Assembly (NCBI RefSeq): GCF_005144885.1
Contig: NZ_CP039690.1
Location: 2,183,001-2,247,000 of the forward strand
Length of the DNA: 64,000 bases
From: Phreatobacter stygius
Lineage (GTDB): Bacteria > Pseudomonadota > Alphaproteobacteria > Rhizobiales > Phreatobacteraceae
Direction: 5' to 3'
Position numbers and translations under genes: made by a program
Notes under the pieces: generated by a model
Databases searched by the model: none
The model's input: only the letters and a program-made list of their open reading frames with translations
Told to the model about the DNA's origin: nothing
Shown here: in pieces, positions 30,261 through 47,654 of the stretch
Position numbering within the stretch: position 1 is the first letter of the stretch
Layout of the letters: each line of letters opens with the position of its first letter

Positions 30261-30291
30261 GCTTGCCGCCGCAGTGGCAGTCTCGATTCAT

Positions 30292-30303
30292 GCAATCGAT
30301 TGC
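30292..30303. promoter_or_regulatory. LacI-type operator, copy A
   Basis: GCAATCGATTGC is a perfect 12-bp palindrome with the CG centre typical of LacI-family sites. It matches the core of the four other sites in this region and lies 307 bp before the MFS start, so it may serve as an auxiliary site. Confidence 0.65.
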
Positions 30304-30462
30304 CGGAAAATGAACCTCCAACCACGATGTCAACCGCGGGCGGCAGGACACGACGCCCGGCCGTCCCTATCCGCTAAAGCCACGGCCGATCTGCTATTCT
30401 CGCCACCGCCCGGCCGTGCCCCGCCGGAACGCAGCGATCACGCCGCTTGACAAGTTTTGAAA

Positions 30463-30482
30463 TTGTGCAATCGATTGCACAA
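30463..30482. promoter_or_regulatory. LacI-type operator, copy B (best site)
   Basis: TTGTGCAATCGATTGCACAA is a perfect 20-bp palindrome, the strongest of the five copies. It lies 11 bases after a consensus TTGACA -35 element (30447-30452), covering the place where the -10 region would be, so a bound repressor would block the MFS promoter. Confidence 0.75.
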
Positions 30483-30609
30483 ATAACTTTGCCGAACCAG
30501 CGGCCAAGACCACCGAGATGCCCGGCAAGCCCGATCCGACGGCCGGCCGGCGTGCCAATGATCGCGCCAAGCGACGCAGCCAATGATGCATCCAACCATG
30601 GGGAACAGC

Positions 30610-31947
30610 ATGTCCACGATCAGTGTCGGAGCGCGGCTCGACCGCCTGCCGGTATCCAATGTCCATCGCAAGATATTCACCCTCGTCGCCATCGGCATGT
30701 TCTTCGAGGGATTCGACATCTATCTGGCCGCCAGCGTTCTCGGCTCGACATTGCGGAGCAATTTCTCGACGATCGCCCAGAATGGTCTGTTCATCTCGGC
30801 GACCTTCGTCGGCATGATGCTCGGCGCTTTCCTCGCCGGTTTCCTCGGCGACCGTTATGGCCGCAAGCGCACCTATCAATGGAATCTGGTTGTGTTCGGG
30901 GTGGCGGCGATCCTGTCGGCCTTCGCCCCCAACATGGAGACGCTGATCGGCCTGCGTTTCCTGATGGGCCTTGGCCTCGGCGCCGAGGTCGTCGTCGGCT
31001 ATTCGGTGATCACCGAATTCGTGCCGCCGAGCGTGCGCGGCCGCTGGTCCGGCATGATCGCGACCATCGTCACCGCCGGCTTGCCGGCCTCCGCGCTGAT
31101 GGCCTGGCTGCTGATCCCGTCTTATGGCTGGCGCGTCATGTTCATCATCGGCGGCTGCGGCGCGCTGATCGCCTGGGCGCTGCGCAACGGCCTGCCGGAA
31201 TCGCCGCGCTGGCTCGAATCGGTCGGACGCCAGGCGGAGGCCGAAGCGATCATCGCCGACATCGAACGGCAGGCATCGAACGGCCAGCCCTTGCCGCCGC
31301 CCCAGCCGACGCCTGCGCCGCTCGCCGGCGCGCGCGACCTGAGCGCCCTGGCCCGGTCACCCTTCCTCGCCCGCATGGTCGTCGGCTGCGTCTCGCTGAT
31401 CGTCGTCAACACGCTGATCTACGGTTTCATTTCCTGGCTGCCGACCTTTTTCATCAGCCAGGGCCAGGACGTCACGCGCAGCTTCGGCTTCTCGCTGCTG
31501 ATGGCCCTCGGCGGCCCCATCGGCTCGACCATCGGGGCCTTTGCCGCCGACCCGATCGGCCGCAAGAAGACGATCATCGGAGCGGCGGCCCTCGCCATCA
31601 TTCTCGCCGCGCTGTTTCCGCTGGCCTCCGATCCGCTGCTGGTGGCAGCGCTTGGCTTCCTGCTCACCGTGCCGATCTACATTCTCGTCGCGCTGCTGTT
31701 CGGCATCTATATTCCCGAACTGTTCCCGACCGAGTTGAGGCTGCGCGCCGTCGGCATCTGCAACACCGCCGGCCGCAGCGCCAGCATCATCGTGCCGCTG
31801 GTCGTCGGCCCGTTGTTCCTGGCCTATGGCGTCACCGGCGTGCTGACCCTGATGGGCGCGGCGCTGGCGATCATGATCGTGGTGGTCGCAACGCTTGGCA
31901 TCGAGCCGGAGCGCAAGGGCCTGGAGGCGGTCACCAACCTCGCCTGA
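30610..31947 (+). CDS. MFS transporter, AAHS/sugar-porter-like
   Basis: This 445-residue protein has 12 predicted membrane segments. It carries the MFS signature loops GFLGDRYGRKRTYQ between helices 2 and 3 and DPIGRKKTI between helices 8 and 9, and LRFLMGLGLGAEVVVGY in helix 4. FFEGFDIYLAASVLG in helix 1 resembles the aromatic acid:H+ symporter group. The ATG at 30610 has GGGGA six bases upstream. It is preceded by two LacI-type operators, so it is the second importer of the LacI regulon beside the ABC system. Confidence 0.88.
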   Translation: MSTISVGARLDRLPVSNVHRKIFTLVAIGMFFEGFDIYLAASVLGSTLRSNFSTIAQNGLFISATFVGMMLGAFLAGFLGDRYGRKRTYQWNLVVFGVAAILSAFAPNMETLIGLRFLMGLGLGAEVVVGYSVITEFVPPSVRGRWSGMIATIVTAGLPASALMAWLLIPSYGWRVMFIIGGCGALIAWALRNGLPESPRWLESVGRQAEAEAIIADIERQASNGQPLPPPQPTPAPLAGARDLSALARSPFLARMVVGCVSLIVVNTLIYGFISWLPTFFISQGQDVTRSFGFSLLMALGGPIGSTIGAFAADPIGRKKTIIGAAALAIILAALFPLASDPLLVAALGFLLTVPIYILVALLFGIYIPELFPTELRLRAVGICNTAGRSASIIVPLVVGPLFLAYGVTGVLTLMGAALAIMIVVVATLGIEPERKGLEAVTNLA

Positions 31948-32001
31948 GCGGCATCGCGCCTATGCCGGCACGACGGATCGGCGGGGGGCGTCTCCCGCCG
32001 C

Positions 32002-32586
32002 TCAGTCCGGACAGGGCGCGTTCGCCGCCGCCCAGACGGCGAGCGCCTGGCCGAGCGCCTCGACCGAAACCGGCGGCGGGCGACGCTCCTCGCCGCGGCC
32101 GTTGCGCCCGGGCTGCCAGGCCCAGAGCACCAGTGCGTCGGAGGTCATGTGACGCACCAGGTCGGCGACCGATCGTCCGCCATTGGCCCGGGGATCCTTC
32201 ACGCTGCGGCAGAGCGCGCCCGAGGTCAGTCCGACCCAGCCCATCGAACGCGGCGCGAGCTTCCAGTGCGGCGCCCCCGGCACGCCGCTCGCGTTATTGT
32301 TGCGTTGCTGATGGCAGGCCGAACAATGCAGGCCGGGCGCGCCGTGATCGGCCGGGCCGCGCACGATGTTCATGCGGTGGACATGGCGGTCGTCGGTCTG
32401 TGCCGGCCGGTCCGACACCGGATGGCAATTGATGCAGCGGGGCGAGGTCAGGACCTGCTCGATCTGGCCCCAGGCCCTGAGCGCCTCAGCCGTCGGCTGC
32501 TGAGCTGCGCCCGGAACCGTCGTGACCACCGCTGTCGCGGCCATCAGCGGCCCGGCAATCCGCATCATGCATGAGCGCACTGGCAT
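32002..32586 (-). CDS. Exported protein with two CxxCH haem motifs
   Basis: This 194-residue protein has a signal peptide (MRIAGPLMAATAVVTTVPGA) and two c-type haem sites, CINCH (51-55) and CSACH (88-92). A conserved-looking central region follows (APHWKLAPRSMGWVGLTSGA). I recall similar small proteins annotated beside periplasmic isoquinoline 1-oxidoreductase-type molybdoenzymes, for which they would carry electrons; no such enzyme is in this window. The ATG at 32586 has GGAGG seven bases upstream. It lies convergent to the MFS gene and divergent from lacI, with the copy C operator in the shared gap. Confidence 0.75.
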   Translation of the reverse strand: MPVRSCMMRIAGPLMAATAVVTTVPGAAQQPTAEALRAWGQIEQVLTSPRCINCHPVSDRPAQTDDRHVHRMNIVRGPADHGAPGLHCSACHQQRNNNASGVPGAPHWKLAPRSMGWVGLTSGALCRSVKDPRANGGRSVADLVRHMTSDALVLWAWQPGRNGRGEERRPPPVSVEALGQALAVWAAANAPCPD

Positions 32587-32775
32587 GGCCGAGCCTCCGC
32601 AATCGGATCGCAGCACCGGGACGGGCCCGGATGAGCCACGACCGAATAGCCCCATGATAGCCGGATCGGCATGCGATGACAGGCAATGTTCACCGGCGGT
32701 CGGTGACCGGTCGCGACCGATGTGACCGAATTCCCACGCCGCGCCGATTGATGCGGTAAATTGGGGAAGTTGTTT

Positions 32776-32787
32776 GCAATCGGTTGC
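32776..32787. promoter_or_regulatory. LacI-type operator, copy C
   Basis: GCAATCGGTTGC matches the core of the other sites with one change (A to G). It lies 81 bases before the lacI start chosen here, consistent with weak autoregulation, and also faces the haem-motif gene on the other strand. Confidence 0.55.
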
Positions 32788-32867
32788 TGACCCGTGCAAC
32801 CCTCGGTCGGGCGGTCATCGCCACACCGGCAACGCGCGATCTTGCAAAGTGAATGCAGAGGCAGCGC

Positions 32868-33911
32868 ATGACGAGCTCCCCCATCGAACCACGGTCCCGG
32901 GTGAACCTGCGTCGCCTCGCCGATGAGGTTGGTGTCCACCCGTCCACCGTCTCACGCGCGCTCGACCCGACCAAGCGGCACCTGGTCGCCGACGACGTCG
33001 CCGACAGGATCACCACGGCGGCCCGGCAGTTGGGCTATCGCCCCAATCCGGTCGCGGCGAGCCTGCGCACCCGCCGCTCGACCCTGGTCGGCGTACTGGT
33101 CCCCGACATCACCAACCCGGTGTTCTCGCCGATCATTTCCGGCATTGCCGAAATCCTCGGCGCCGAGGGCTATTCGACCATCGTCGCCGATGCCGGCACC
33201 GAATTTGGTCCGCGCATGGCGCTGATCGACGAATTGATCGCGCGCCGGGTCGACGGCCTGGTGCTGGCGACCGTCAGCCGCGACGACCCGATGCTGGAAC
33301 ATTGCCTGGCCGAAGGTGTCCATGTCGTGCTGGTCAACCGGGCCGACGATTCCGATCGCGCCTCTTCCGTTGTGTCGGACGATGTCGCCGGCATGCGGGT
33401 GGCGGTCGAGCACCTCTACCAGCTTGGCCATCGCGTCATCGGCCATCTCGCCGGCCCGTCGACCTTGTCGACAGGCCACCTTCGCCGCGTCGGCTTCGAG
33501 CAGGCCATGCAGGATCATGGCCTCGCCGTTCCCCCGGCAGCCATCGTCGAGGCGGCAAGCTACGACCGCGACGAGGGCGAGCGTGCCACGGCCAGGTTGT
33601 TGCAGGCCTATCCCGGTCTGACCGCCATTGCCGCGGCCAACGACCTGCTGGCGCTCGGCGCCTACAAGGCGCTTGCCGCACGTGGCCTGCGCTGCCCCGC
33701 CGATGTCTCGGTGGTTGGCCATAACGACATGCCGCTGGTCGACATGGTCGAGCCTCCGCTGACCACCATCCGCATTGGCCCGCGCGACATGGGACGCGAT
33801 GCCGCACGTCTTCTGCTCGAGCGGATGACCGGTTCGGCTTTGCCGATCCGGCGCATCGTGCTGGCGCCGGATCTGGTTTTTCGGGCCTCGACGGCGGCCC
33901 CGCGCGGCTGA
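32868..33911 (+). CDS. LacI-family transcriptional regulator
   Basis: This 347-residue regulator has the LacI headpiece (VNLRRLADEVGVHPSTVSRA, then LDPTKRHLVADDVADRI) and hinge (YRPNPVAASLRTRRS). The effector domain has LVGVLVPDITNPVFSPIISG and CPADVSVVGHNDMP. The start at 32868 has GAGG six bases upstream; an ATG at 32853 is the alternative. It lies in the middle of five matching operator-like sequences (30292, 30463, 32776, 33992, 41090), one before each transcription unit of the surrounding catabolic genes, which identifies it as their repressor. Confidence 0.93.
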   Translation: MTSSPIEPRSRVNLRRLADEVGVHPSTVSRALDPTKRHLVADDVADRITTAARQLGYRPNPVAASLRTRRSTLVGVLVPDITNPVFSPIISGIAEILGAEGYSTIVADAGTEFGPRMALIDELIARRVDGLVLATVSRDDPMLEHCLAEGVHVVLVNRADDSDRASSVVSDDVAGMRVAVEHLYQLGHRVIGHLAGPSTLSTGHLRRVGFEQAMQDHGLAVPPAAIVEAASYDRDEGERATARLLQAYPGLTAIAAANDLLALGAYKALAARGLRCPADVSVVGHNDMPLVDMVEPPLTTIRIGPRDMGRDAARLLLERMTGSALPIRRIVLAPDLVFRASTAAPRG

Positions 33912-33962
33912 GCCCCAGACAGCCGCATTCCTGCAATCCGCGCGATGCAAGCAAACTTCGAT

Positions 33963-33991
33963 TGACTCGGCGAGCCACCCCGACCTAGCTT
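33963..33991 (+). promoter_or_regulatory. Sigma-70 promoter of the ABC-amidohydrolase operon
   Basis: TTGACT (33963-33968) and TAGCTT (33986-33991) are separated by exactly 17 bases, a good housekeeping promoter. The operator copy D starts on the next base, so transcription would begin inside the operator. The first gene starts 86 bases after the -10. Confidence 0.65.
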
Positions 33992-34003
33992 GCAATCGAT
34001 TGC
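33992..34003. promoter_or_regulatory. LacI-type operator, copy D
   Basis: GCAATCGATTGC, a perfect palindrome identical to copy A and to the core of copy B, abuts the -10 element of the promoter at 33963-33991 and covers the expected transcription start. This is the classic position for simple repression. Confidence 0.75.
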
Positions 34004-34076
34004 GGTTGCGCATTCGGGCACCTGAGAGGCGTTGCCTGGTGAACAGCGACGACAGAACCGCGAACGGAGGGGCGCT

Positions 34077-35135
34077 ATGACTGACCTGACTCGACGTCGA
34101 TTTGTGGCCGGATCGGCCGCGGCAGCCAGCCTGCTGCAGAGCCCCCAGGTCTTTGCCCAGTCGAACTTCCTGGAGCCGGCGCGCATCCGCATGGGCTTCG
34201 CGCCCTATATTTCGGCCGGGCCTTATCTGATCGCCGAGGCCAAGGGCTATTTCAAGAAGCTCAATATCGAGATCGTGCCGTCGAGCCATGTCGACGGCAG
34301 CCTGTCCATGCCGGCACTGGCTGCCGGCGAGCTGGATATCACCGGTGCCACCTTGAGCGCCGGCCTGTTCAACCTGATGGCCAAGGGCGCCGGCTTGCGC
34401 ATGTTCTTCGAGCGTGGGCGCGAAGCGCCCGGCTGGGGCTCGAACTCGATCATGGTCTCGAACGAATTGTGGGAGAAGGGCTTCCGCGGGCCCGACGGCT
34501 ACAAGCAGGCCAAGGGCGCCACCATCGGTATTTCCTCGCGTGGCAGTGTCGCGCACTATCTGCACACCATGGGCCTCGAACGGGCCGGCATGAAGGCCGA
34601 CGACCTCGAATGGTCCTGGGGCATGAGCCCCAATGTCAGCCTGCCGCTGATGAAGCAGAACCGCATCGGCATCATCAACATGCCGCTGCCCGGCGCCTAT
34701 GCCGCGCAGAAACAGGGCATCGGCAAGGTCGCCACCTGGAGCGACGAGCTGGCGCCGGACTTTGTCCTGGCCTGCTCGGTCGCCAGCGAAAAATTCCTGC
34801 GCGAAAAGCATTCCGCGGCCGTGCGCTTCTCGATGGCGATCATGCAGGGCAATGCCGATTACATGGAGGCTGCCAAGAGCGGCAATCCGGAGGTCCTGAA
34901 AATCCTCGCCGACGGCACCGGCCTGACACCCCAGGTGATCGACGAGACCCGGCCGCGCTGGACCTTCATGACCATCGACGGCACGCCGAACATGGCCTCG
35001 ATCATCGCGCAGCAGAAATTCTGGCGCGAACGCACCGACCTGCTCGCCCGCAGCGTGCCGGACAATCAGCTGTTCGACGATCGCGCCATCAAGGAAGCCA
35101 AGCAGCGGATGACCGAGAAGAACCCGTTCATCTGA
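34077..35135 (+). CDS. NMT1/SsuA-type ABC solute-binding protein
   Basis: This 352-residue periplasmic protein has a Tat signal with a triple arginine (TRRRFVAGSAAAASLLQS) and an NMT1/SsuA/ThiY-like fold. RIRMGFAPYISAGPYLIAEA, FKKLNIEIVP and ALAAGELDITGATLS are the family landmarks. Members carry aminopyrimidines, sulfonates, nitrate or phthalate-type ligands. The ATG at 34077 has GGAGG upstream. It is the first gene of the LacI-controlled ABC-amidohydrolase operon, whose downstream enzymes suggest an amino- or otherwise substituted ring compound as ligand. Confidence 0.88.
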   Translation: MTDLTRRRFVAGSAAAASLLQSPQVFAQSNFLEPARIRMGFAPYISAGPYLIAEAKGYFKKLNIEIVPSSHVDGSLSMPALAAGELDITGATLSAGLFNLMAKGAGLRMFFERGREAPGWGSNSIMVSNELWEKGFRGPDGYKQAKGATIGISSRGSVAHYLHTMGLERAGMKADDLEWSWGMSPNVSLPLMKQNRIGIINMPLPGAYAAQKQGIGKVATWSDELAPDFVLACSVASEKFLREKHSAAVRFSMAIMQGNADYMEAAKSGNPEVLKILADGTGLTPQVIDETRPRWTFMTIDGTPNMASIIAQQKFWRERTDLLARSVPDNQLFDDRAIKEAKQRMTEKNPFI

Positions 35136-35187
35136 TCGCGGTTCGGGCGGATCGATACGCAAAGCGCAGGGAGGCGCTTGTCAGACC

Positions 35188-35988
35188 ATGCAATTCGAGG
35201 CGATTTCGATTGAAGGACTGTCGCACCGGTTTCTGAGCCGGACGCGACCGCCGACCACCGCGCTGACCGACGTGTCCTGCGTCTTTCCGGCCGGCAAGGT
35301 GACCGCCATCGTCGGCCCCAGCGGCTGCGGCAAGTCGACCTTGCTGCTGATCCTGCGCGGCCTGGTGGAAGCCAGCGCCGGCAAGGTGCGGTTCCTCTAC
35401 GGCGACGGTTCGGGCCAGCTGACGGCCGGTGATGCCCCGCGCATGGCCACCGTCTGGCAGTCGTTCAATCTCCTGCCCTGGCGTTCGGTCATCGACAACG
35501 TCGCCTTCGGCCTCGAACTGGCCGGCGTATCGCTCGCCGAACGCCAAGCCAAGGCGGCGGAAGCGATCAAGGCGGTCGAGCTCGCCGGCTTCGAGAAACA
35601 TTATCCGGGCCAGCTCTCCGGTGGCATGAAGCAGCGCGTCGGGCTCGCCCGCGGCCTCGTCCAGTCGCCCGATATCCTGTTCCTCGACGAACCCTTTGGC
35701 GCGCTCGATGCCCAGACCAGGCTCTATCTGCAGGAACAGCTGTCGACCCTGGTCGAGGCGAGCGCCAAGACGGTGATCCTGATCACCCACTCGATCGAGG
35801 AAGCGATCTTCCTCGCCGACCACGTGATCGTCATGACCGCGCGCCCGGGCCGTGTCGCCCGCAGCCTCGACATCGACCTGCCGCGGCCGCGCGGCATCGA
35901 TGTCCAGAACGACAAACGCTTCGGCGAATATTTCTCCGAGATCTATGGGCTGCTGCGCGACGAAGTCCGCAAGGCAATGTTGAACTGA
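35188..35988 (+). CDS. ABC importer ATPase, SsuB/TauB-type
   Basis: This 266-residue ATPase has Walker [11 protein letters not shown]-loop [10 protein letters not shown], signature [15 protein letters not shown], Walker [15 protein letters not shown] and switch His in LITHSIEEA. The pattern is that of nitrate/sulfonate/aminopyrimidine importers, matching the binding protein upstream and the permease 11 bases downstream. Confidence 0.93.
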
Positions 35989-35999
35989 GGGCTGCCACG

Positions 36000-36836
36000 A
36001 TGTCGGATATCAACCGCTCGGCGCTGGCCGATCCCAAAGCCATCGTCGAGACCAAACCCGCGCCCGATTTCAAGGATGAAAGGCTGCGCGACGACACCTG
36101 GTTCTACGGCCCGGTGGCGATGGCGCTGTTCCTGGTGTTCTGGGAAGTCTCGATCCCCCTGTTCGACGTGCCGGAGATTTTCCTGCCGAGGCCGTCGCTG
36201 GTCATCGTCACGCTCTACGAGCTGTTTGCCACCAAGGGGCTCGCTTACGACCTCGTGCTGACGCTCTACCGCATCTTCGCCGGCTTCTTCCTGGCCGCCG
36301 TGGTCGGTGTCGGCCTTGGCCTCTTGATGGGCATGTCGCGGCGCATCTATGCCATCTGCGACATCTTCGTCGCAGCCCTCTATCCCGTGCCGAAGATCGC
36401 CCTGGTGCCGCTGCTGGTCATCTGGCTCGGCAGCGGCAATGCCTTCCAGATCGCGCTCTCGGCGCTCGGTTGCATCTTCCCGATCCTGGTCAACACCATC
36501 ATCGGCGTGCGCCAATGCGACGAAGGCCTGATCCTGGCGGCCCGCGACCTCGGCGCCAGCGCCGTGCAGATCCAGCGCAAGGTGGTGTTGCCGGCGGCCG
36601 TGCCGGCGATCTTCGGCGGCCTGCGCCTGGCGCTCGGCATCTCCATCATCCTGGTGGTCGCCGCGGAAATGCAGACCGCCCGCTACGGCCTCGGCGCCAA
36701 GCTGCAGCTTGCCGGCCAGATCCTCGAGACCGGCCAGGTCTTCGCCATCCTGCTGCTGCTCGCCGTGCTCGGCATCCTGCTGACCAAGGGCCAGCAGCAT
36801 CTCGACGGCAAGATCAACCGCTGGCGCACCCGCTGA
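36000..36836 (+). CDS. ABC importer permease, SsuC/TauC-type
   Basis: This 278-residue inner-membrane protein has about six membrane segments after a cytoplasmic N-terminus. The ATPase-docking region is around LILAARDLGASAVQIQRKVV followed by LPAAVPAIFGGLRLALGIS. The segment RIFAGFFLAAVVGVGLGLLM begins the core. GAGG precedes the ATG. It completes a three-part importer with the two preceding genes and is followed 40 bases later by the first amidohydrolase. Confidence 0.92.
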   Translation: MSDINRSALADPKAIVETKPAPDFKDERLRDDTWFYGPVAMALFLVFWEVSIPLFDVPEIFLPRPSLVIVTLYELFATKGLAYDLVLTLYRIFAGFFLAAVVGVGLGLLMGMSRRIYAICDIFVAALYPVPKIALVPLLVIWLGSGNAFQIALSALGCIFPILVNTIIGVRQCDEGLILAARDLGASAVQIQRKVVLPAAVPAIFGGLRLALGISIILVVAAEMQTARYGLGAKLQLAGQILETGQVFAILLLLAVLGILLTKGQQHLDGKINRWRTR

Positions 36837-36876
36837 TATCAAGATTGGGCCGGACAACGGCCTCTGGAGAAACGTC

Positions 36877-38250
36877 ATGAAACGGACGCTGATCGAGTGT
36901 GGCTGGCTGGTCACCATGGACGAGGCCATCGGCGATCATCGCAATGCCCGCGTGCTGGTCGAGGGCAGCCGCATCCTTGCCGCCGGCAAGGGCATCGAGG
37001 CCGAGGCCGACGAGGTCATCGATGCCCGCGACAAGATCGTCATGCCCGGGCTGATCGATGCCCATGTCCACACCTGGCAGACCGGGCTTCGCGCCATCGG
37101 CTCGGAATGGCTCGGCCCCGACTACCACGCCAATATCCACGCCAATCTGGCGACCCGCTACGGTCCCGACGACAACTACATTGGCAACCTGATCGGCGCG
37201 CTCAGCAAGATCGATAGTGGCACCACCACCATTCTCGACTGGTGCCACAACCTGACCTCGCTGCACCATGCCGAGCGTTCGGTCGACGGTCTCGAGGAAT
37301 CGGGCATTCGCGCGGTCTTCGCCCATGGCACGGCCAAGCCGCCGACCAAACCGGGCGAGCTGCCCTATACCCACGTGCCGCATCCGCGCGACCGGATCGA
37401 AGCCCTGCGCAACGGCCGCTTCGCCTCCGACGACCGGCTGGTGACGCTCGCCATGGCGGTCCTCGGGCCGCATTGGGGCACTTACGAGGTGGCCGAGCAG
37501 GACCTCAGGCTTGCCCGCGAACTGAACCTGCTGTCGAGCTCGCACGCCACCCGCAAGATCCCCGACCAGGTCGCGCCGGGCGGCTACAAGAGGCTGGTCG
37601 AGGCCGGCCTGATCGGCCCGGATCACAATCTGGTCCACGGCAATTATATCGAGGATGACGAGCTGAAGGCCCTGGTCGAGGCCGGCGCCTCGGTGACCGG
37701 CACCGTGCTGGTCGAACTGCACGGCCATGCCGCCGAGCCGGTCACGCTTCGCGTGCGCAATTTCGGCGGCATGCCCTCGATCGGCATCGATGTCGAACCG
37801 ATCGTGACAGGCGAGATGTTCCGCGAGATGCAGGCGGCGCTGCTGCACGCCCGCTGGGCGTCGCTGCGCGACAATGCCGCGGCCGGCAAGCCGCCGTTCA
37901 AGACCATCCCGATCAAGTCGCGCGAGGCCCTGGCCTGGGCGACCATAGGCAATGCCCGGGCGATCGGCCTGGAAGACCAGATCGGCTCGCTGACCCCCGG
38001 CAAGAAGGCCGACATCGTCATGCTGCGCGCCAATGACCTGAACCTGTTCCCGGTCCACGATCCCTTGCTGTCGATCGTCGAACAGGCCAGCGCCGGCAAT
38101 GTCGACACCGTCATGATCGACGGCGTCATCCGCAAACAGGCCGGGCGCCGGGTCTTCCCGGACGACGTGCTCGCCAAGCGCAAGGTCGAGCTGGTGGCCT
38201 CCGTCGAGCGTGTCATGCGCGACGGGTCGTTCACCATGAAAGCGGCCTGA
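36877..38250 (+). CDS. Amidohydrolase I (tandem paralog, ATZ/TRZ-like)
   Basis: This 457-residue cytosolic TIM-barrel hydrolase keeps all expected metal ligands: HxH at 63/65 (LIDAHVHTWQ), His223 (SSSHATRK), His254 (NLVHGNY) and Asp305 (SIGIDVEP). The strand-8 motif IGIDVEP differs from the usual LGTDG/LGSDG of atrazine and guanine hydrolases, and a DWCHN segment (121-125) is shared by all three paralogs. These features mark a separate subfamily. It should hydrolyse an amino or other leaving group from a ring, or open a cyclic amide. It is the fourth gene of the LacI-controlled operon. Confidence 0.87.
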   Translation: MKRTLIECGWLVTMDEAIGDHRNARVLVEGSRILAAGKGIEAEADEVIDARDKIVMPGLIDAHVHTWQTGLRAIGSEWLGPDYHANIHANLATRYGPDDNYIGNLIGALSKIDSGTTTILDWCHNLTSLHHAERSVDGLEESGIRAVFAHGTAKPPTKPGELPYTHVPHPRDRIEALRNGRFASDDRLVTLAMAVLGPHWGTYEVAEQDLRLARELNLLSSSHATRKIPDQVAPGGYKRLVEAGLIGPDHNLVHGNYIEDDELKALVEAGASVTGTVLVELHGHAAEPVTLRVRNFGGMPSIGIDVEPIVTGEMFREMQAALLHARWASLRDNAAAGKPPFKTIPIKSREALAWATIGNARAIGLEDQIGSLTPGKKADIVMLRANDLNLFPVHDPLLSIVEQASAGNVDTVMIDGVIRKQAGRRVFPDDVLAKRKVELVASVERVMRDGSFTMKAA

Positions 38251-38261
38251 GAGCATTCACC

Positions 38262-39638: not shown

Positions 39639-39643
39639 CCGTC

Positions 39644-41005: not shown

Positions 41006-41089
41006 GCTCGGATCCGGGCCGTCGTCCCGCCTCCGGTCGAATCGCGGTCAGCGCCGGCGCGACCTTCCGGGGAATGGCGGATCTTGACG

Positions 41090-41107
41090 ATTGCAAACGA
41101 TTGCAAT
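41090..41107. promoter_or_regulatory. LacI-type operator, copy E
   Basis: ATTGCAAACGATTGCAAT is an 18-bp palindrome with one mismatched pair near the centre and the core GCAAACGATTGC, one base from the consensus. It follows directly after TTGACG (41084-41089), a likely -35 element, and would fill the spacer to a weak -10 (TAGGGA, 41107-41112). It controls the dioxygenase operon, whose first gene starts 25 bases later. Confidence 0.65.
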
Positions 41108-41131
41108 AGGGAGAGTTCAGGGAGTGAAACG

Positions 41132-41992
41132 ATGATCATTGAACGCCAGGAACAGGTGACCGACGCCGTTCTCGCGGCAATGGCCAAGACGAGCGACCCT
41201 CGGCTTGCCGAGATCATGGCCGCGCTGGTCAAGCACCTGCATGCCTTCGCCCGCGAGGTCAGGCTGACCGAGCCGGAATGGGAAAAGGCCATCGAATTCG
41301 TCGTCGGCCTTGGCCAGTTGACCAACGATACCCACAACGAAGCCGTGCTGGCATCCGACGCGATCGGCTTTTCGACGCTCGTCTGTCTGCTCAACAATGG
41401 CAATGCCGGCAATACCGAGGCCGCCGCCGCCCTGCTCGGGCCGTTCTGGCGGATGAACTCGCCGCACATGGAGAACGGCGGCTCGATCATCCGCTCGGAG
41501 ACGCCGGGCGAGGAGCTTGTCGCCGCCTGCCTGGTTCGCGACGCCGCCGGCAATCCGATCGCCGGCGCCGAGGTCGACGTCTGGCAGGCCTCGCCGGTCG
41601 GCATGTACGAGAACCAGGACGAGACCCAGGCCGACATGAACCTGCGCGGCAAGTTCACCACTGACGCGGATGGCGCCTTCTCGTTCCGCTCGGTCAAGCC
41701 CGCCGGTTATCCGGTGCCGACCCATGGTGTGGTCGGCAAGCTGCTGGCCGCCCAGAACCGCCATCCGTTCCGGCCGGCGCACATTCATTTCCTGATCTAC
41801 AAACCGGGCTTCAAGACGCTGATCACCCAGATCTTCGTCGAGGGTGACCAATATCTGGAGACCGATGTGGTGTTCGGCGTGACCAAGGCGCTGGTCGGCG
41901 GCATTGAAAAGGGCGGCAATGGCTACACCCTCCGCTATAGTTTCGTGATGGAGCCCGGCGAAGCGGTTCTGCCGGTTCCTCCGATCAAGTGA
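41132..41992 (+). CDS. Intradiol ring-cleavage dioxygenase, hydroxyquinol type
   Basis: This 286-residue non-haem Fe(III) enzyme has the helical N-terminal dimerisation domain (~1-100) and the catalytic beta-sandwich. The four iron ligands are present: Tyr159 (PVGMYENQ), Tyr193 (PAGYPVPT), His217 and His219 (RPAHIHF). LLGPFWRMNSP before the catalytic domain and the VDVWQASPVGMYENQD stretch fit the catechol/hydroxyquinol 1,2-dioxygenase group. It cleaves an aromatic diol or triol between the hydroxyls to a cis,cis-muconate or maleylacetate. First gene of the second LacI-controlled operon; GGGAG lies upstream of the ATG. Confidence 0.9.
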   Translation: MIIERQEQVTDAVLAAMAKTSDPRLAEIMAALVKHLHAFAREVRLTEPEWEKAIEFVVGLGQLTNDTHNEAVLASDAIGFSTLVCLLNNGNAGNTEAAAALLGPFWRMNSPHMENGGSIIRSETPGEELVAACLVRDAAGNPIAGAEVDVWQASPVGMYENQDETQADMNLRGKFTTDADGAFSFRSVKPAGYPVPTHGVVGKLLAAQNRHPFRPAHIHFLIYKPGFKTLITQIFVEGDQYLETDVVFGVTKALVGGIEKGGNGYTLRYSFVMEPGEAVLPVPPIK

Positions 41993-41999
41993 GGATGTC

Positions 42000-42752
42000 A
42001 TGACCCTGGGAACTGCCCTGAAGGACAAGGTCGCCGTCGTGCTCGGCGGGTCCGGCGGCATCGGCGCCGCCACCGCTTACCAATTTGCCGCCGAAGGCGC
42101 GACGGTGGTGGTCGTCTACCGCTCCGACAAGGCCGCCGCCGACGTGATCGTCGCAAGCCTGCCGGGCGCCGGCCATCTCGCCGCTGCCGCAACGGTTGAG
42201 GATACCGCCTCGCTGACCGCGCTCGCCGCCCATGTCGAGGAACGGCTCGGCCGCGCCGATATCCTGGTCAACTCGGCCGGCTTCACCAAGCCGGTGCCGG
42301 CGGGCGATCTGGATGCCCTGGACGACGCCTTCATCGACCGGATGTTCCAGGTCAACTGGCGCGGCCAGTTCGCCGCGATCCGTGCCTTTCGTCGCCTGCT
42401 CGAGGCGGGCGGCGGCGGCCTGATCGTCAATGTCTCGTCGATCGCCGCCTTGAACGGCGTCGGTTCCAACCTCGCTTACGCGGCGGTCAAGGCCGGCATG
42501 GACACGCTGACCAAGTCGCTGGCCCGGGCGCTGGCGCCGGAAATCCGCGTGATGAGCGTCTCACCCGGCGTGGTCGACACCGATTTCGTTCCTGGCCGCG
42601 GTGCCGAACAGCTTGCCAAGATCGCCCCGACCATCCCGCTGAAACGGGTCGCGACCCCCGACGATGTCGGCCGCGCCATTGTCGCCTGCGCCACCCATCT
42701 CACCTATTCGACCGGTTCGCTGATCATCGTCGACGGCGGCCGGGCACTCTGA
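42000..42752 (+). CDS. Short-chain dehydrogenase/reductase
   Basis: A 250-residue classical SDR with cofactor loop GGSGGIGAA, NSAG motif (ILVNSAGFTKP), catalytic Ser in NVSSIAALNG and Tyr-x-x-x-Lys in LAYAAVKAG. The C-terminal VDGG motif is present. GAGG sits five bases before the ATG, seven bases after the dioxygenase stop. In this operon it could oxidise a ring diol precursor or reduce a keto intermediate; the sequence does not decide. Confidence 0.9.
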   Translation: MTLGTALKDKVAVVLGGSGGIGAATAYQFAAEGATVVVVYRSDKAAADVIVASLPGAGHLAAAATVEDTASLTALAAHVEERLGRADILVNSAGFTKPVPAGDLDALDDAFIDRMFQVNWRGQFAAIRAFRRLLEAGGGGLIVNVSSIAALNGVGSNLAYAAVKAGMDTLTKSLARALAPEIRVMSVSPGVVDTDFVPGRGAEQLAKIAPTIPLKRVATPDDVGRAIVACATHLTYSTGSLIIVDGGRAL

Positions 42753-42777
42753 GCTTCTCACGTTCAAGGACAAACTC

Positions 42778-43674
42778 ATGCGCCCGATGCGGAACAAGGT
42801 CGTCATCACCTGCGCTGTGACGGGCAATCTGACCACGCCCGATCAGACGCCGCATCTTCCGATCACGCCGGAGGAGATCGCCGATGCCTGCCTCGGCGCA
42901 GCCGAAGCCGGTGCCGCCGTCACCCATATCCATGTCCGCGAGCCGGGCACCGGCAAGCCGTCCATGGCGCTCGAATATTACCAGGACGTGGTGGCCCGGA
43001 TCCGCGCGCGGAACCAGAAACTGATCCTCAACATCACCACCGGTCCCGGGGGCCGCTTCGTGCCCTCCGAGGACGATCCGAAGGTCGCCGCGCCCGGCAC
43101 CACGCTGCTCGCCCCGGAAAAGCGCGTCGAACATATCGCCGCGTTGAAGCCCGACATTTGCACGCTCGACCTCAACACGATGAATTCCGGCGGCCAGGTG
43201 GTCATCAACACGCCCGGCAATGTCCGGCGCATGGCCAAGGTCATCCGAGCGGCCGGCGTCAAACCGGAGATCGAACTGTTCGATTCCGGCGATATCGCCC
43301 TGATGCACGATCTCCTGAAGGACGGCTCGATTTCGGGGCCGTGCATCGCCTCCTTCGTGCTCGGCGTGAAATATGGCTTCCAACCCGGGCCCGAGACGGT
43401 GATCTATGCCCGCGATCTCTTGCCTGCCGACACCGAGTTCACGGTGATCGGCACCGGCCGATCGAGCTTTCCGATGGTGGCGCAGTCGGTGCTTGCCGGC
43501 GGCCACGCCCGCACCGGGCTCGAGGACGCGGTCTATCTCGACCGCGGCACGCTCGCGCCCTCCAACGCCGCCATGGTCGACAAGGCCCGACGCATCATCG
43601 AGGAGCTCGGCGTGCAGATCGCCAATCCCGACGAAGCCCGCGACATCCTGCACCTGCCGTCGCGCGCGGCCTGA
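42778..43674 (+). CDS. Beta-keto acid cleavage enzyme (BKACE, DUF849)
   Basis: This 298-residue TIM-barrel zinc enzyme of the Kce/BKACE family combines a beta-keto acid with acetyl-CoA to give acetoacetate and a new acyl-CoA. Landmarks are VVITCAVTGNLTTPDQTPHL, PITPEEIA, the zinc His pair in VTHIHVREPGTG (50, 52) and LNITTGPGG. Some family members accept 3-oxoadipate, which would fit directly after ring cleavage and reduction. That would replace the usual 3-oxoadipate CoA-transferase and thiolase, neither of which is in the window. Confidence 0.88.
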   Translation: MRPMRNKVVITCAVTGNLTTPDQTPHLPITPEEIADACLGAAEAGAAVTHIHVREPGTGKPSMALEYYQDVVARIRARNQKLILNITTGPGGRFVPSEDDPKVAAPGTTLLAPEKRVEHIAALKPDICTLDLNTMNSGGQVVINTPGNVRRMAKVIRAAGVKPEIELFDSGDIALMHDLLKDGSISGPCIASFVLGVKYGFQPGPETVIYARDLLPADTEFTVIGTGRSSFPMVAQSVLAGGHARTGLEDAVYLDRGTLAPSNAAMVDKARRIIEELGVQIANPDEARDILHLPSRAA

Positions 43675-43687
43675 TCCGGAGCACGCC

Positions 43688-44716
43688 ATGCACGCGAGAA
43701 CCGAGATCGGCGGCAAGGCGGGCGCGATCGCCATGCGAAGCCTCCGGCTGAACGCCAAGGCCGACAGCGTCGAAGCCGTCGCGCCGACGATCGAGACACT
43801 GCCGTCTGCGCGCCCGCGCGACGGTGATGTGCTGGTCGAAATCCGCGCCGCGGCGGTCAACCCGTCCGACGCCAAGGCGGCGATCGGCATGATGCCTTAT
43901 GCGATCTTCCCGCGCACGCCCGGCCGCGACTTCGCCGGCGTGGTGATCGACGGACCGGCTGACCTGGTCGGCAAGGAGGTCTTCGGTTCGTCCGGCGATC
44001 TCGGCATCCGCCGCGACGGCACCCATGCCTCGCATCTCATGGTGGAGGCGGCGGCGCTGGTCGACAAGCCGGCCGGCATCACGCTCGCCGAGGCCGCAGG
44101 CATCGGCGTGCCCTTTGTCACCGCCCAGGAAGGTTTTCGCCGCGCCGGCATGCCGAAACCGGGTGAGACCGTGCTGATCCTCGGCTTGAACGGCAAGGTC
44201 GGCCAGGCCGCGGCCCAGATCGCCACCTGGCAGGGCGCCAAGGTCATTGGCGTGGTGCGCCGGCCCGAGGACTATGCCGGTCATGCCAGCGCGCCGGTCA
44301 CGGTGATCAATTCGGCAAGCGAAGACGTGGTCGCCCGGGTCAAGGACCTGACCGGCGGCAAGGGCTGCGACATCGTCTATAACACGGTCGGCGAACCCTA
44401 TTACGAGGCCGGTACCCGGTCGCTCAGCGTGCTCGGCCGGCAGATCTTCATCGCCGCCCTGAAGCAGACCGTGCCGTTCGACATCTTCGCCTTCTATCGG
44501 GGCCGGCACACCTATGTCGGCATCGACACGCTGGCGCTCTCCTCGATCGCGACTGCCGACGTGCTGCGCGACCTGGTGCCGGGTTTCGCGGCCGGTGCAC
44601 TGAAGCCTTTTCCGATCGAGGATCGGGCGATCTATCCGCTCGACCGGGCGCGCGAAGCCTATGTCGCGGTGCTCAGCGCGTCGCGCGATCGTGTCATCTT
44701 CCTGCCCAACGGGTGA
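43688..44716 (+). CDS. Zinc-less MDR reductase (quinone oxidoreductase-like)
   Basis: This 342-residue medium-chain dehydrogenase/reductase has the GroES-like N-domain (VLVEIRAAAVNPSDAKAAIG, then PRTPGRDFAGVV) and an NADP-binding domain with LGLNGKVGQAAAQIA. The zinc-ligand motif GHE is missing, so it should act as an enoyl or quinone reductase rather than an alcohol dehydrogenase. In this pathway it could reduce the C=C bond of maleylacetate, normally done by an unrelated iron-type reductase. That role is inferred. ATG at 43688; an ATG at 43733 would also give a complete domain. Confidence 0.82.
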   Translation: MHARTEIGGKAGAIAMRSLRLNAKADSVEAVAPTIETLPSARPRDGDVLVEIRAAAVNPSDAKAAIGMMPYAIFPRTPGRDFAGVVIDGPADLVGKEVFGSSGDLGIRRDGTHASHLMVEAAALVDKPAGITLAEAAGIGVPFVTAQEGFRRAGMPKPGETVLILGLNGKVGQAAAQIATWQGAKVIGVVRRPEDYAGHASAPVTVINSASEDVVARVKDLTGGKGCDIVYNTVGEPYYEAGTRSLSVLGRQIFIAALKQTVPFDIFAFYRGRHTYVGIDTLALSSIATADVLRDLVPGFAAGALKPFPIEDRAIYPLDRAREAYVAVLSASRDRVIFLPNG

Positions 44717-44720
44717 AGCC

Positions 44721-45068
44721 ATGCATGTCAACCGCTTCGCCGATCTGAAGCCTTACGACGCCCCCGGCCACCACGGCATGCACATGCTGCGCATGCAGGG
44801 CCGCGAGGCCGGTCCCGCCGACATGATGTGGCTCGGCGTGTCGCAGATCCTGCCCGGCGGCAGCATCGACCTGTCGAGTTCGCCGGACGAGAAGTTCTAT
44901 GTCGTCCTGGAAGGCGACCTGACGGTCGAGACCGAAAGCGGTTCGGTCAGGCTCGGTGTCTGGGACAGCTGCCGCATCGCGCCGCACGAAAAACGTGCGC
45001 TCAAGAACCCGACCAATCGAACGGTCGTCGTGCTGCTGGCCATGCCGCTGCCCAAGCCCCAACCCTGA
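44721..45068 (+). CDS. Small cupin protein with degenerate metal site
   Basis: This 115-residue single-domain beta-barrel starts four bases after the reductase stop. The first cupin motif is SIDLSSSPDEKFYVVLEGDL: the usual HxH is missing and only the Glu is kept. The second motif has a His in IAPHEKRALKN. With most metal ligands gone it may be a binding or isomerising accessory rather than a dioxygenase. Its place in the operon suggests it acts on an unstable pathway intermediate. Confidence 0.75.
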   Translation: MHVNRFADLKPYDAPGHHGMHMLRMQGREAGPADMMWLGVSQILPGGSIDLSSSPDEKFYVVLEGDLTVETESGSVRLGVWDSCRIAPHEKRALKNPTNRTVVVLLAMPLPKPQP

Positions 45069-45162
45069 GCAAAGGCAGCGCCATGAGCCAAAGCCGCACC
45101 AAGAAAAGAAAACCGCCGAAAGAGCGTTCCATGGCAGACCATAGGATCCGGAGGAATTCCCC

Positions 45163-46149
45163 ATGTCTCGTCTCGACCGCAGGCAAGCCCTTGGCCTAGC
45201 TCTGTTCGGCACAGCTGGCCCCACATTCGGCAGCCGGCCGTCCCTGGCCCAGGCTGCGTCAAACCAAGCCTTCCCGAACCAGATGGTTCGGATGATCGTG
45301 CCGTTCAGCGCCGGCAGCATGACCGATATCCTGGCCCGCTCGCTGGCCGAGAAGCTGCGCGAAAAATGGGGCCAGCAGGTCATCGTCGAGAACCGCCCGG
45401 GCATTGCCGGCACCGGCGGCGTCGCCCGTTCGACGCCCGACGGCCTGACGCTGATGCTGACCTCCAACGGCCACACTGTCATCCGCAGCGTCAACAAGGA
45501 CGTCACCTTCGATCCGGTGAAGGATTTTGTCGGCATCACCAAGGTCGCCTCGATGCCGTCGATCATGGTGGCGCCGGCCGAGGGCGACATCCGCACGCTG
45601 AAAGACCTGATCGACGCCGCCAGGGCCAGGCCGGGCCAACTCAATTACGGCTCCGCCGGGCTCGGCAGTTCGACCGGCATCGCGGCCGAGGTGTTCCGCC
45701 AGGTGACCGGCACGCGCATGCAGCTCGTGCCCTATCGCGGCATGCCGGAGAGCCAGACCAGCGTGTTGCGCGGCGACAGCGCCTTCTGCTTCACCTTCTT
45801 CAATGTCGGCGGCGACCTGATCCAGGCCGGCCGGCTGCGGGCGCTGGCCGTCACCGGCGAGACGCGCATGGCGCAATTGCCTGACGTGCCCACGTTCAGG
45901 CAGGCCGGCCTTGCCGATTTCACCTATGATGCCTGGTTCGGCGTCATGGGGCCGGCGGGCATGCCGAAACCGCTGGTCGCGCAGATTGCCCGCGACATTG
46001 CCGCAGGCCTTGCCGAGGCCGACATCAAGACCCGCTTCGAGCAGCAGGGGGTCAACCTGGTGACCACCACGCCGGAAGCCTTCGACGCCGAAATCGCCAG
46101 GGACGCCGAACGTTATGGTCCGCTGGTTCGTCAGGCTGCCGGAGGCTGA
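45163..46149 (+). CDS. Bug-family (TctC-like) solute-binding protein
   Basis: A 328-residue periplasmic binding protein with a Tat-like signal (MSRLDRRQALGLALFGTAGP). The TTT/Bug fold landmarks are VRMIVPFSAGSMTDILARSL, VIVENRPGIAGTGGVA, LNYGSAGLGSSTG and VPYRGMPESQTSVLRGD. No TctA/TctB membrane subunits are in the window, as is common for Bug proteins, so it either uses distant partners or works as a sensor. GGAGG precedes the ATG. It sits between the cupin and the exported amidohydrolase. Confidence 0.9.
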   Translation: MSRLDRRQALGLALFGTAGPTFGSRPSLAQAASNQAFPNQMVRMIVPFSAGSMTDILARSLAEKLREKWGQQVIVENRPGIAGTGGVARSTPDGLTLMLTSNGHTVIRSVNKDVTFDPVKDFVGITKVASMPSIMVAPAEGDIRTLKDLIDAARARPGQLNYGSAGLGSSTGIAAEVFRQVTGTRMQLVPYRGMPESQTSVLRGDSAFCFTFFNVGGDLIQAGRLRALAVTGETRMAQLPDVPTFRQAGLADFTYDAWFGVMGPAGMPKPLVAQIARDIAAGLAEADIKTRFEQQGVNLVTTTPEAFDAEIARDAERYGPLVRQAAGG

Positions 46150-46154
46150 AGCCG

Positions 46155-47654
46155 ATGAACCGGGATGATGACATGATATCGGCGGCCATTGGCCGCCGTG
46201 CGCTGCTGGCCGCCGCAGCAGCAGCCGCCGCCGCCGCCAGCATGCTCGCGGCACCGGCCGGAGCCCAGGCTCCGGCACCCGCCCCGCCGCCGCCCGACAT
46301 CCGGGATCGCACCACGATCCTGATTCGCGGCGCGACCGTCATATCGATGGATCCGGCCATCGGCGACCTCGTTCGCGGCGACATCCTGATCGAGAACGGC
46401 GCGATCCGGGCGATCGGCGCCAACGTCGCGGCACCGGCCGACGCCTTGATCATTGATGCGACCGGCAAGATCGCCTGCCCTGGCTTCGTCAACGGCCATG
46501 TCCACCTGCCGCAGGCTTTGCAGCGCGGGCTTTCGGCCGACCATTCCTTCGGCGACTATTTCCGCAGCATCGTGCTGCGCTATTCGAACCGCATGACACC
46601 GGCCGAAGTGGCGCTCGGCGTGCGCATCGGGGGCTTGCATGAAATGGCCGTCGGCACAACCACCCTTGTCGACTGGAACCGCGAGGTGATTTCGCCTGAA
46701 CATGCCGACGCGGCGGTAGAGGGCCATTTCGCCTCGGGCGCCCGGACGGTGCTCTGCTACACCGTGCCGCTCAGGCCCCGGGACGGCTCGACACCCAACC
46801 ATGCCCGCATGCTGGAGCATGCCAAGGCCTTGCGCGCCGGCAAGCTCGCCTCCGACACCGGCCGGGTCCGGCTCGGGGTGTGTCTGCCCGGTCCCGACTT
46901 CATGCCGCTCGACCCGGCACTGGCCGACCTCGCCATGCTGCGCGAACTCGACGTGCTCACCGCCTTCCATTGCGGCGCGCCGATCTATGCCGCCCGCAAG
47001 AAACGCGTCGTGGCGACGCTCGCCGAGCGGGGATTGCTCGACCGCAACACCCAGCTCGTCCATGCCAATGACCTGGACCTCGACGAATATCGGATCGCCG
47101 CCGACAACGGGGCGTCGCTGACCTCGACCCCCGAGGCCGAAATGCATATGGGCCACGGCTTCCCCGCCATCGGCCGGGCCCGTGACGCCGGCTTGCGCTT
47201 CAGTCTCGGCACCGACATCCCCTCGGCCTTCGGCGGCGGCATGCTGTCACAGATGCGCGTGGCCTATGCCGCCGACCTCGCGCTGCGCAACGCCACTTCC
47301 TTCCGCGACACCGGCAAGCCGCCGCAGGTCAAGCCGTGGTCGGCCCGGGCCATGCTCGAAATCCTGACCATCGGTGCAGCACGATCGGTCAACATGGACC
47401 AGGTGATTGGTTCGCTCGCACCAGGCAAACGCGCCGACATCTTGCTGTTCAACGGCGGCTCCACCGGCCTCGCGCCGGTGCTCGACCCGGTCGGCAGCAT
47501 CGTCCTGCAGGCCACTCCCGCCGACATCGACACGGTCATCGTCGATGGCCGCGTGATGAAGTCGGGCGGCCGCATGACGGACCCGGAGCTGCCGAGGATC
47601 GTCGATGAGGTAAAGGTCCGCGCCGCGGCAATGGTCGAGGCGGCCACCCGCTGA
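46155..47654 (+). CDS. Amidohydrolase IV, exported by Tat
   Basis: This 499-residue amidohydrolase has an N-terminal twin-arginine signal (AIGRRALLAAAAAAAAAASM) and a Pro/Ala-rich linker, so it acts in the periplasm, unlike its three cytosolic relatives. Metal ligands are His115 and His117 (VNGHVHLPQ), His272 (AFHCGAP), His303 (LVHAND) and Asp354 (SLGTDIPSA). The strand-8 motif is the usual LGTD form, so it belongs to a different branch from genes I-III. It ends the dioxygenase operon and probably starts substrate breakdown outside the cytosol, before uptake. Confidence 0.87.
   Translation: MNRDDDMISAAIGRRALLAAAAAAAAAASMLAAPAGAQAPAPAPPPPDIRDRTTILIRGATVISMDPAIGDLVRGDILIENGAIRAIGANVAAPADALIIDATGKIACPGFVNGHVHLPQALQRGLSADHSFGDYFRSIVLRYSNRMTPAEVALGVRIGGLHEMAVGTTTLVDWNREVISPEHADAAVEGHFASGARTVLCYTVPLRPRDGSTPNHARMLEHAKALRAGKLASDTGRVRLGVCLPGPDFMPLDPALADLAMLRELDVLTAFHCGAPIYAARKKRVVATLAERGLLDRNTQLVHANDLDLDEYRIAADNGASLTSTPEAEMHMGHGFPAIGRARDAGLRFSLGTDIPSAFGGGMLSQMRVAYAADLALRNATSFRDTGKPPQVKPWSARAMLEILTIGAARSVNMDQVIGSLAPGKRADILLFNGGSTGLAPVLDPVGSIVLQATPADIDTVIVDGRVMKSGGRMTDPELPRIVDEVKVRAAAMVEAATR

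Follow-up and report, generated by a model that had tools for sequence, protein, structure and literature searches.

The question raised by this locus is which genes one LacI-type regulator governs, and what kind of compound they would degrade, in a 64-kb window, by which is meant the whole stretch of DNA analysed here (positions 2,183,001–2,247,000 of the 7.35-Mb single-contig genome of Phreatobacter stygius, G000). The initial annotation described a LacI-controlled catabolic regulon that would import a substituted ring compound, remove its substituents hydrolytically, open an aromatic ring, and feed the products into central metabolism. The reading adopted here, with moderate confidence, is that of a LacI regulon with two core operons, in which a hydroxyquinol-type cleavage would be followed by reduction by an MDR protein and by exit through BKACE (beta-keto acid cleavage enzyme). 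The gene families at 30583–47654 were confirmed by Pfam and NCBIfam scans, so that the inventory given earlier (LacI, MFS, NMT1-ABC, amidohydrolases, dioxygenase, SDR, BKACE, MDR, cupin, and Bug) stands. Related loci are called module loci below if the dioxygenase has BKACE and MDR genes within six genes. The principal genes are the following:

30583..31947, plus strand: MFS importer; nearest model TIGR00895 (aromatic acid/H+ symport), under its cut-off
32853..33911, plus strand: LacI-family regulator (Pfam LacI and Peripla_BP_3)
34077..35135, plus strand: NMT1-type substrate-binding protein (Pfam NMT1_2)
35188..35988, plus strand: ABC ATPase of the NMT1-type importer (Pfam ABC_tran)
36000..36836, plus strand: ABC permease of the NMT1-type importer (Pfam BPD_transp_1)
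36877..38250, plus strand: amidohydrolase AH1 (PRK08204 family); metal ligands present; HATR, without the HxxE glutamate
38262..39638, plus strand: amidohydrolase AH2, 58% identical to AH1; HATK
39644..41005, plus strand: amidohydrolase AH3, 55% identical to AH1; HVTK
41132..41992, plus strand: hydroxyquinol-type intradiol dioxygenase (by prediction); iron ligands Y159, Y193, H217, and H219; D76
42000..42752, plus strand: SDR dehydrogenase, present in 43 of 47 module loci
42778..43674, plus strand: BKACE (PF05853, 317 bits against a gathering threshold of 24.8)
43682..44716, plus strand: MDR protein, enoyl/quinone-reductase-like; proposed stand-in for maleylacetate reductase

Exactly five places in the window match the CG-centred palindromic operator pattern TGCAANCGNTTGCA with at most one mismatch; each falls in an intergenic gap ahead of the MFS, lacI, NMT1-ABC, or dioxygenase gene, two of them (30291 and 30466) preceding the MFS gene. 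They are listed without strand:

30291..30304: operator-like site TGCAATCGATTGCC, one mismatch, 279 bp ahead of the MFS gene
30466..30479: operator TGCAATCGATTGCA, within a perfect 20-bp palindrome (30463–30482), 104 bp ahead of the MFS gene
32775..32788: operator-like site TGCAATCGGTTGCT, one mismatch, 65 bp ahead of lacI
33991..34004: operator-like site TGCAATCGATTGCG, one mismatch, 73 bp ahead of the NMT1 gene
41092..41105: operator TGCAAACGATTGCA, 27 bp ahead of the dioxygenase gene

The five operator-like palindromes noticed earlier are thus all the sites of this quality in the window, where about 0.1 would be expected by chance (mean 0.12 and maximum 1 in 60 first-order Markov simulations of the window). 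When three mismatches were allowed, the window held no excess (24 observed, 29 expected). Across the whole genome, 14 places match with at most one mismatch, compared with 2 for a control pattern; five of the 14 are in the window, four in a cluster at 5.222–5.240 Mb, and five elsewhere. A guessed palindrome, TTGGATATCCAA, yielded nothing, and a consensus promoter scan of 18 kb gave three promoter-like sites, none of which overlaps an operator.

The LacI protein carries both of its domains (PF00356, 29.2 bits against a cut-off of 27; PF13377, 135.3 bits), and the recognition-helix motif GVHxST is present in 38 of the 42 LacI matches of related loci, the pattern not having found it in the other four. 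The genus sample comprised 12 Phreatobacter genomes, and the family sample is that one genus. Orthologues of LacI, the dioxygenase, and the amidohydrolase trio occur together in five of these genomes, and none of them occurs in the remaining seven. Identities in the four other positive genomes reach 75–92% for LacI, 78–92% for the dioxygenase, and 85–96% for AH1; in the seven negative ones, LacI matches do not exceed 37%, and the dioxygenases present are different ones that reach no more than 46%. Perfect sites (TGCAAWCGWTTGCA) are confined to the five positive genomes, although three others have single-mismatch sites. In G001, G005, and G008, lacI, the operon of the NMT1 importer and the trio, and the dioxygenase operon occupy three different parts of the genome, with a perfect site at both operons.

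A wider comparison covered 80 dioxygenase loci, the best 80 of at least 577 relatives; because the query was built from module members, the 47 module loci among them are no measure of prevalence, and the 80 include at least five contigs that were also counted as G005, G006, G008, G213, and G239. Genes in related loci were called by codon usage with training on 17 window genes, which misses or shifts some of them (e.g., the reductase at 3.116 Mb). A site lies within 400 bp upstream of the dioxygenase in 41 of the 47 module loci and in 1 of the 33 others, the latter (L186) being a contig-end fragment that carries LacI, SDR, and BKACE; the background, from random 400-bp windows drawn from the same loci, is 69 of 4000. 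Where a module locus has no site (six cases), LacI is likewise missing within six genes. The core unit (dioxygenase, BKACE, MDR, and mostly SDR, LacI, and the operator) recurs in Bradyrhizobium, Bosea, Tardiphaga, Rhizobium, Microvirga, Xanthobacter, Roseomonas, Skermanella, and others, and in Mesorhizobium without LacI or a site nearby. Exact sites were found in nine of 13 genomes from Bradyrhizobium and its relatives, at 18 places in all; by coordinates, 15 of them belong to the loci concerned. In Bradyrhizobium lablabi (L200), NMT1-ABC-AH1-AH2-AH3, LacI, and dioxygenase-BKACE-MDR stand side by side, with sites. At the level of the order, 21 of 27 neighbourhoods of dioxygenase matches outside the genus were read; dioxygenase, BKACE, and MDR are found together in five of them (four also with LacI and sites) and not in the other 16. 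Because the operator, LacI, and the gene set are conserved as a group, including in genomes with the genes unlinked, the proposal of a LacI-controlled regulon is supported: judged by this conservation, the regulon is real and conserved, with repression and a ligand presumed.

The intradiol dioxygenase has Dioxygenase_N and Dioxygenase_C domains with two Tyr and two His iron ligands, which are conserved in 48 of 48 module dioxygenases. Its best matches in the PDB are hydroxyquinol-type dioxygenases (1tmx, 8r2x, 8r2w, PnpC 3n9t, and the unnamed 8r2v). Residue 76, where Asp presumably sets the specificity, is Asp in all 48 module dioxygenases, in six of six maleylacetate-reductase-linked ones, and in the five nearest structures, the structures compared being of the hydroxyquinol type only, with no catechol dioxygenase among them. 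It is Gly in 12 of 12 pcaF-linked and 4 of 4 HpaH-linked relatives, and 17 other relatives are divided into 14 with Asp and 3 with Gly. The module dioxygenases are clustered but do not form one clade, since the module label needs 8 changes on the tree (shuffled mean, 29.4). The aromatic ring opening proposed at the outset is supported by the structures, the iron ligands, and Asp 76 as the probable act of a hydroxyquinol-type intradiol dioxygenase.

An HpaH-type hydratase adjoins related dioxygenases in L118, L146, L207, L213, L220, and L222, accompanied by an HpaI-type aldolase in L118, L146, L213, and L220, and the dioxygenase–HpaH combination is also present on plasmid pAt of Agrobacterium tumefaciens (walnut). 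The four HpaH-linked enzymes compared at residue 76, all with Gly, are those of L207, L213, L220, and L222. A Bradyrhizobium dioxygenase clade (L215, L218, L224, L225, L229–L235, and L238) lies downstream of a pcaF-like gene that is 93–95% identical to the L119 copy; this clade has a single origin in the tree, with support of 100/98.

Cleavage of hydroxyquinol gives maleylacetate, in which a C=C bond has to be reduced; the enoyl/quinone-reductase-like gene of the module is that of the MDR protein, which is therefore proposed as the reductase, and the PDB relatives of MDR are quinone and enoyl reductases. 3-Oxoadipate, in turn, belongs to the beta-keto acids, on which BKACE enzymes act. An iron-ADH-type maleylacetate reductase (at least 50% identical to the Bosea copy) occurs within six genes in 1 of the 47 module loci, and pcaF (at least 80% identical to the L119 copy) near none of the 47, PcaIJ not having been searched for. 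Plasmid neighbourhoods were read for 9 of 30 amidohydrolase records, 5 of 104 dioxygenase records (one unannotated), and 2 of 60 BKACE records. In four of the nine amidohydrolase neighbourhoods, an AH1-like amidohydrolase (43–46% identical to AH1) is accompanied by an intradiol dioxygenase and an annotated maleylacetate reductase; these belong to Bosea vestrisii, Bosea vaviloviae, Paraburkholderia sp. D15, and Skermanella rosea, the last with BKACE too. Tardiphaga robiniae (L177) and Bradyrhizobium agreste (L185) have homologous reductase–amidohydrolase clusters adjoining the module. The name “maleylacetate reductase” is the annotation of the public records, and an NCBIfam scan of the L177 copy returned iron-ADH models only, all below cut-off. 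Because these separate amidohydrolase–dioxygenase clusters carry an annotated maleylacetate reductase, the assignment to maleylacetate and 3-oxoadipate gains weight, and the feed into central metabolism claimed by the initial annotation is supported, with BKACE as its predicted point of entry. The Roseinatronobacter plasmid neighbourhood, one of the two read for BKACE, is without the dioxygenase.

Another cluster of the P. stygius genome (L060, 3,115,957–3,120,104) combines a maleylacetate-reductase homologue with an amidohydrolase (47% identical to AH1), an HIBDH-like protein, and another intradiol dioxygenase (40%); next to these come genes for an RbsABC-type importer and a Gfo/Idh/MocA protein, on the downstream side.

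AH1–AH3 are tandem PF01979 paralogues (36877–41005), 54–58% identical to one another. They score 503.8, 469.9, and 455.7 bits with the PRK08204 model NF006056 (cut-off 391), which AH4, described below, also passes with 395.1; the NCBI name of this family is “hypothetical protein”. An AlphaFold2 model of AH1 (pLDDT 91.8) matches deaminases and triazine hydrolases over its full length, with Z of 42–46. The metal ligands (HxH, His, His, and Asp) are all present in AH1–AH3; among the 23 family members aligned, the one from L016 lacks the second His of HxH. The HxxE glutamate, three residues after the strand-5 His, is found in none of the 23 and was seen by eye in the four PDB relatives whose alignments cover that position. 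Its place is taken by Arg or Lys in nine of nine sequences (AH1–AH3 and their orthologues in G001 and L200), and residue 280 is acidic in all 23 members (22 Glu, 1 Asp). With this glutamate missing throughout, a canonical deaminase or chlorohydrolase role is not supported for AH1–AH3, and neither is the earlier idea that the three enzymes strip substituents hydrolytically. As a hypothesis, the role of the HxxE glutamate may have been relocated to residue 280; the trio may act on an ester, a lactone, a cyclic amide, or another bond.

The following scheme, in which all substrates, reactions, and the mode of regulation are predicted, is built on the observed genes, sites, co-conservation, and conserved iron ligands. 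A LacI-type repressor would hold down one regulon with two core operons. From operon A, the NMT1-type ABC system, here together with the MFS carrier, would import the substrate, and the three PRK08204-family amidohydrolases would act on it or on an early product. From operon B, the dioxygenase would open hydroxyquinol (1,2,4-trihydroxybenzene) or a close analogue to maleylacetate; MDR would reduce the C=C bond to give 3-oxoadipate, replacing the iron-dependent maleylacetate reductase; and BKACE, with acetyl-CoA, would cleave 3-oxoadipate to succinyl-CoA and acetoacetate, replacing PcaIJ/PcaF. SDR may either return hydroxybenzoquinone to its reduced form or produce the ring substrate. A bolder version is tentative and on the whole unlikely, namely that a widespread alphaproteobacterial regulon, as yet undescribed, makes hydroxyquinol or its analogue without a monooxygenase by means of a new amidohydrolase class, with the general-acid Glu moved to residue 280, and retains no classical post-cleavage step, MDR and BKACE serving downstream.

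Several observations weigh against this scheme. The site before lacI in the window has no counterpart with at most one mismatch in G001, G005, G006, or G008, and lacI autoregulation was accordingly rejected. The motif is not private to the window LacI: a LacI paralogue of the same genome (45% identical) has sites of its own, and in Bradyrhizobium agreste (L255 in G402, 5444–5544) two exact copies precede a LacI of only 31% identity, at an operon without relatives of the window gene set. These are two of the three stray places of this type among the 18 exact sites, and because they precede so distant a LacI, the motif must be common to different LacI subfamilies. As to the lower pathway, BKACE scores 170.5 bits with the curated 3-oxoadipate model NF053568, short of the cut-off of 350, and higher, 243.7 bits, with the 3-keto-5-aminohexanoate model, also under its cut-off (382). 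Canonical pcaF passes its cut-off in 11 of the 12 Phreatobacter genomes, and a maleylacetate-reductase relative occurs in three of the 12, including one elsewhere in the window genome; because both are present in the genus, BKACE and MDR would not be the sole route through 3-oxoadipate, and the notion that BKACE is needed for want of PcaF was rejected. Among the genes annotated beside the sites, none encodes a monooxygenase able to make hydroxyquinol. Most of the module loci read lack the trio, and in 397 genomes of the order (four candidates scored per genome), AH1 relatives at E ≤ 1e-125 are confined to the genus. Five of the nine amidohydrolase plasmid neighbourhoods have no intradiol dioxygenase, which makes the AH1 family wider than the ring-cleavage pathway. 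In two of these five, the more distant AH1-like proteins (37–39%) on plasmid p2 of Cupriavidus pinatubonensis (L155) and on a plasmid of Rhodococcus sp. ZPP (L156) have FAD-dependent oxygenase/oxidoreductase, fumarylacetoacetate-hydrolase-family, and VOC-family neighbours, which suggests that the family also serves other aromatic routes. Finally, the transporters of module loci vary widely (NMT1-ABC, LIV-type ABC, TRAP, DctA (tested in L184), aromatic-acid-like MFS, and RbsABC-type). Several of these types typically carry carboxylic acids. MFS homologues (66–67%) adjoin sites in L174, L188, and L198.

The second group of sites lies at G000:C1:5,222,449–5,240,089 (L015 and L016) and comprises four sites, the 45% LacI paralogue, four NMT1 proteins, and two amidohydrolases (54% and 34% identical to AH1), as well as a molybdenum-hydroxylase pair, RidA, an isochorismatase-family protein, pirin, and transposases. 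Much of this cluster is also present in G006 (C40 and C71).

The presence of RidA and of a molybdenum hydroxylase at related sites points to a nitrogen compound, and a nitrogen-bearing aromatic or N-heterocyclic substrate, from which the amidohydrolases would remove or open the nitrogen function before the dioxygenase cleaves an amino- or aza-hydroxyquinol analogue, is possible, though unlikely. It is consistent with the sites at 5.222–5.240 Mb, which precede a RidA-NMT1-amidohydrolase unit and an NMT1 gene with the molybdenum-hydroxylase pair (the isochorismatase-family gene being near), with a RidA-family gene between a site-bearing LacI and the MFS gene in a Bradyrhizobium locus (L198), and with the fold of AH1 and its Z scores against deaminases and triazine hydrolases. 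It is at odds with the loss of the deaminase HxxE glutamate in 23 of 23 members; moreover, RidA and the molybdenum enzyme stand outside the window cluster and may belong to the regulon of the LacI paralogue.

That operons A and B are separate pathways, one LacI motif merely serving several unrelated catabolic operons, is decidedly improbable. The trio is indeed missing from most module loci, three of the five Phreatobacter genomes have it at a distance from the module, and other LacI proteins use the same motif; however, A and B are both present or both absent in 12 of 12 Phreatobacter genomes, they are adjacent again in B. lablabi, and related amidohydrolases accompany intradiol dioxygenases elsewhere, in clusters of their own (4 of 9 read). 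Least probable of all is a sugar- or cyclitol-like substrate that would become a trihydroxybenzene by dehydrogenation, hydrolysis, and aromatisation, with no monooxygenase involved: RbsABC-type importers and a LacI-type regulator, which fits such a substrate, do suggest a polyhydroxylated compound, the importer genes being near the module in L171, L172, L175, L176, L178, L179, L183, and L188 (sites in L176 and L188; family scan of L176 only) as well as in the Bosea and Skermanella rosea clusters with amidohydrolase and maleylacetate reductase, but other module loci carry DctA, TRAP, NMT1, LIV-type, or aromatic-acid-like MFS carriers, and no known cyclitol-aromatising enzyme was found.

Three further genes complete the stretch downstream of MDR:

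44718..45068, plus strand: small cupin, present in 30 of 47 module loci
45163..46149, plus strand: Bug/TctC periplasmic binding protein (family scan)
46155..47654, plus strand: amidohydrolase AH4 with a signal-like N terminus, 34–35% identical to AH1–AH3

Bosea vaviloviae has an amidohydrolase at the position equivalent to AH4. Between the MFS gene and lacI, an ORF on the minus strand (32002–32568) encodes a putative dihaem c-type cytochrome with CINCH and CSACH motifs seen by eye; it has no Pfam or NCBIfam match at E 0.001 and a weak Cytochrome_C7 match (E 0.028). This ORF also stands next to lacI in G006 (79%), and in the window an operator-like site separates the two. Upstream, a perfect 20-bp palindrome, TTATCTTGACGTCAAGATAA (29688–29707), lies directly before a MarR gene (29730–30260), which is divergent from another amidohydrolase gene (28020–29438) that adjoins an M24 peptidase gene; together these probably form a separate MarR unit.

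The initial annotation knew of no described pathway with this enzyme set and proposed to look for the set in other genomes. No description of the gene set was found in the open PMC literature, subscription literature being outside the scope; the lower half, however, is recognisable and most likely represents the hydroxyquinol/3-oxoadipate route in a variant form, with enzymes exchanged. In other genomes, the core set is indeed conserved together, so that the refutation foreseen by the initial annotation (a lack of such conservation) does not apply to the core, but the amidohydrolase trio with the NMT1 transporter was met outside the genus once only, in B. lablabi L200. Many hosts of the core unit are soil, root, or nodule bacteria, and the regulon therefore probably handles a common soil or plant compound. 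An amidohydrolase family named “hypothetical protein” gains testable functions, a BKACE subgroup gains a likely role, and MDR becomes a candidate for replacing maleylacetate reductase without being homologous to it. The short conserved operator eases mapping of the regulon, and LacI is a ready tool for an inducer search.

Among known systems, the atrazine and triazine hydrolases and deaminases (AtzA, TrzN, and the isocytosine and SAH deaminases) share the fold and metal ligands of AH1, whereas the AH1 family lacks their catalytic HxxE glutamate and has the acidic residue 280 instead. The clusters of reductase, amidohydrolase, HIBDH-like protein, and dioxygenase in Bosea vaviloviae, Tardiphaga robiniae, and Skermanella rosea and at 3.116 Mb contain the same amidohydrolase family (43–46% identical to AH1) near an intradiol dioxygenase; they differ in that the dioxygenase comes from a separate deep clade (about 40%), the reductase is classical by annotation, and there is one amidohydrolase compared with three here. 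In protocatechuate clusters of Methylobacterium, BKACE lies between pcaG and pcaB, and replacement of PcaIJ has been suggested (PMC8963497); in the part of that account consulted, the role of BKACE is a suggestion rather than a test, and the ring-cleavage enzyme and the operon differ from those described here. The hydroxyquinol lower pathway, with hydroxyquinol 1,2-dioxygenase and maleylacetate reductase, has in common with the window the type of dioxygenase (by nearest structures), the iron ligands, and Asp at residue 76. Compared with it, the window has no monooxygenase among the genes annotated at its sites, MDR in place of the iron-dependent reductase, BKACE in place of PcaIJ/PcaF, and a LacI-type regulator.

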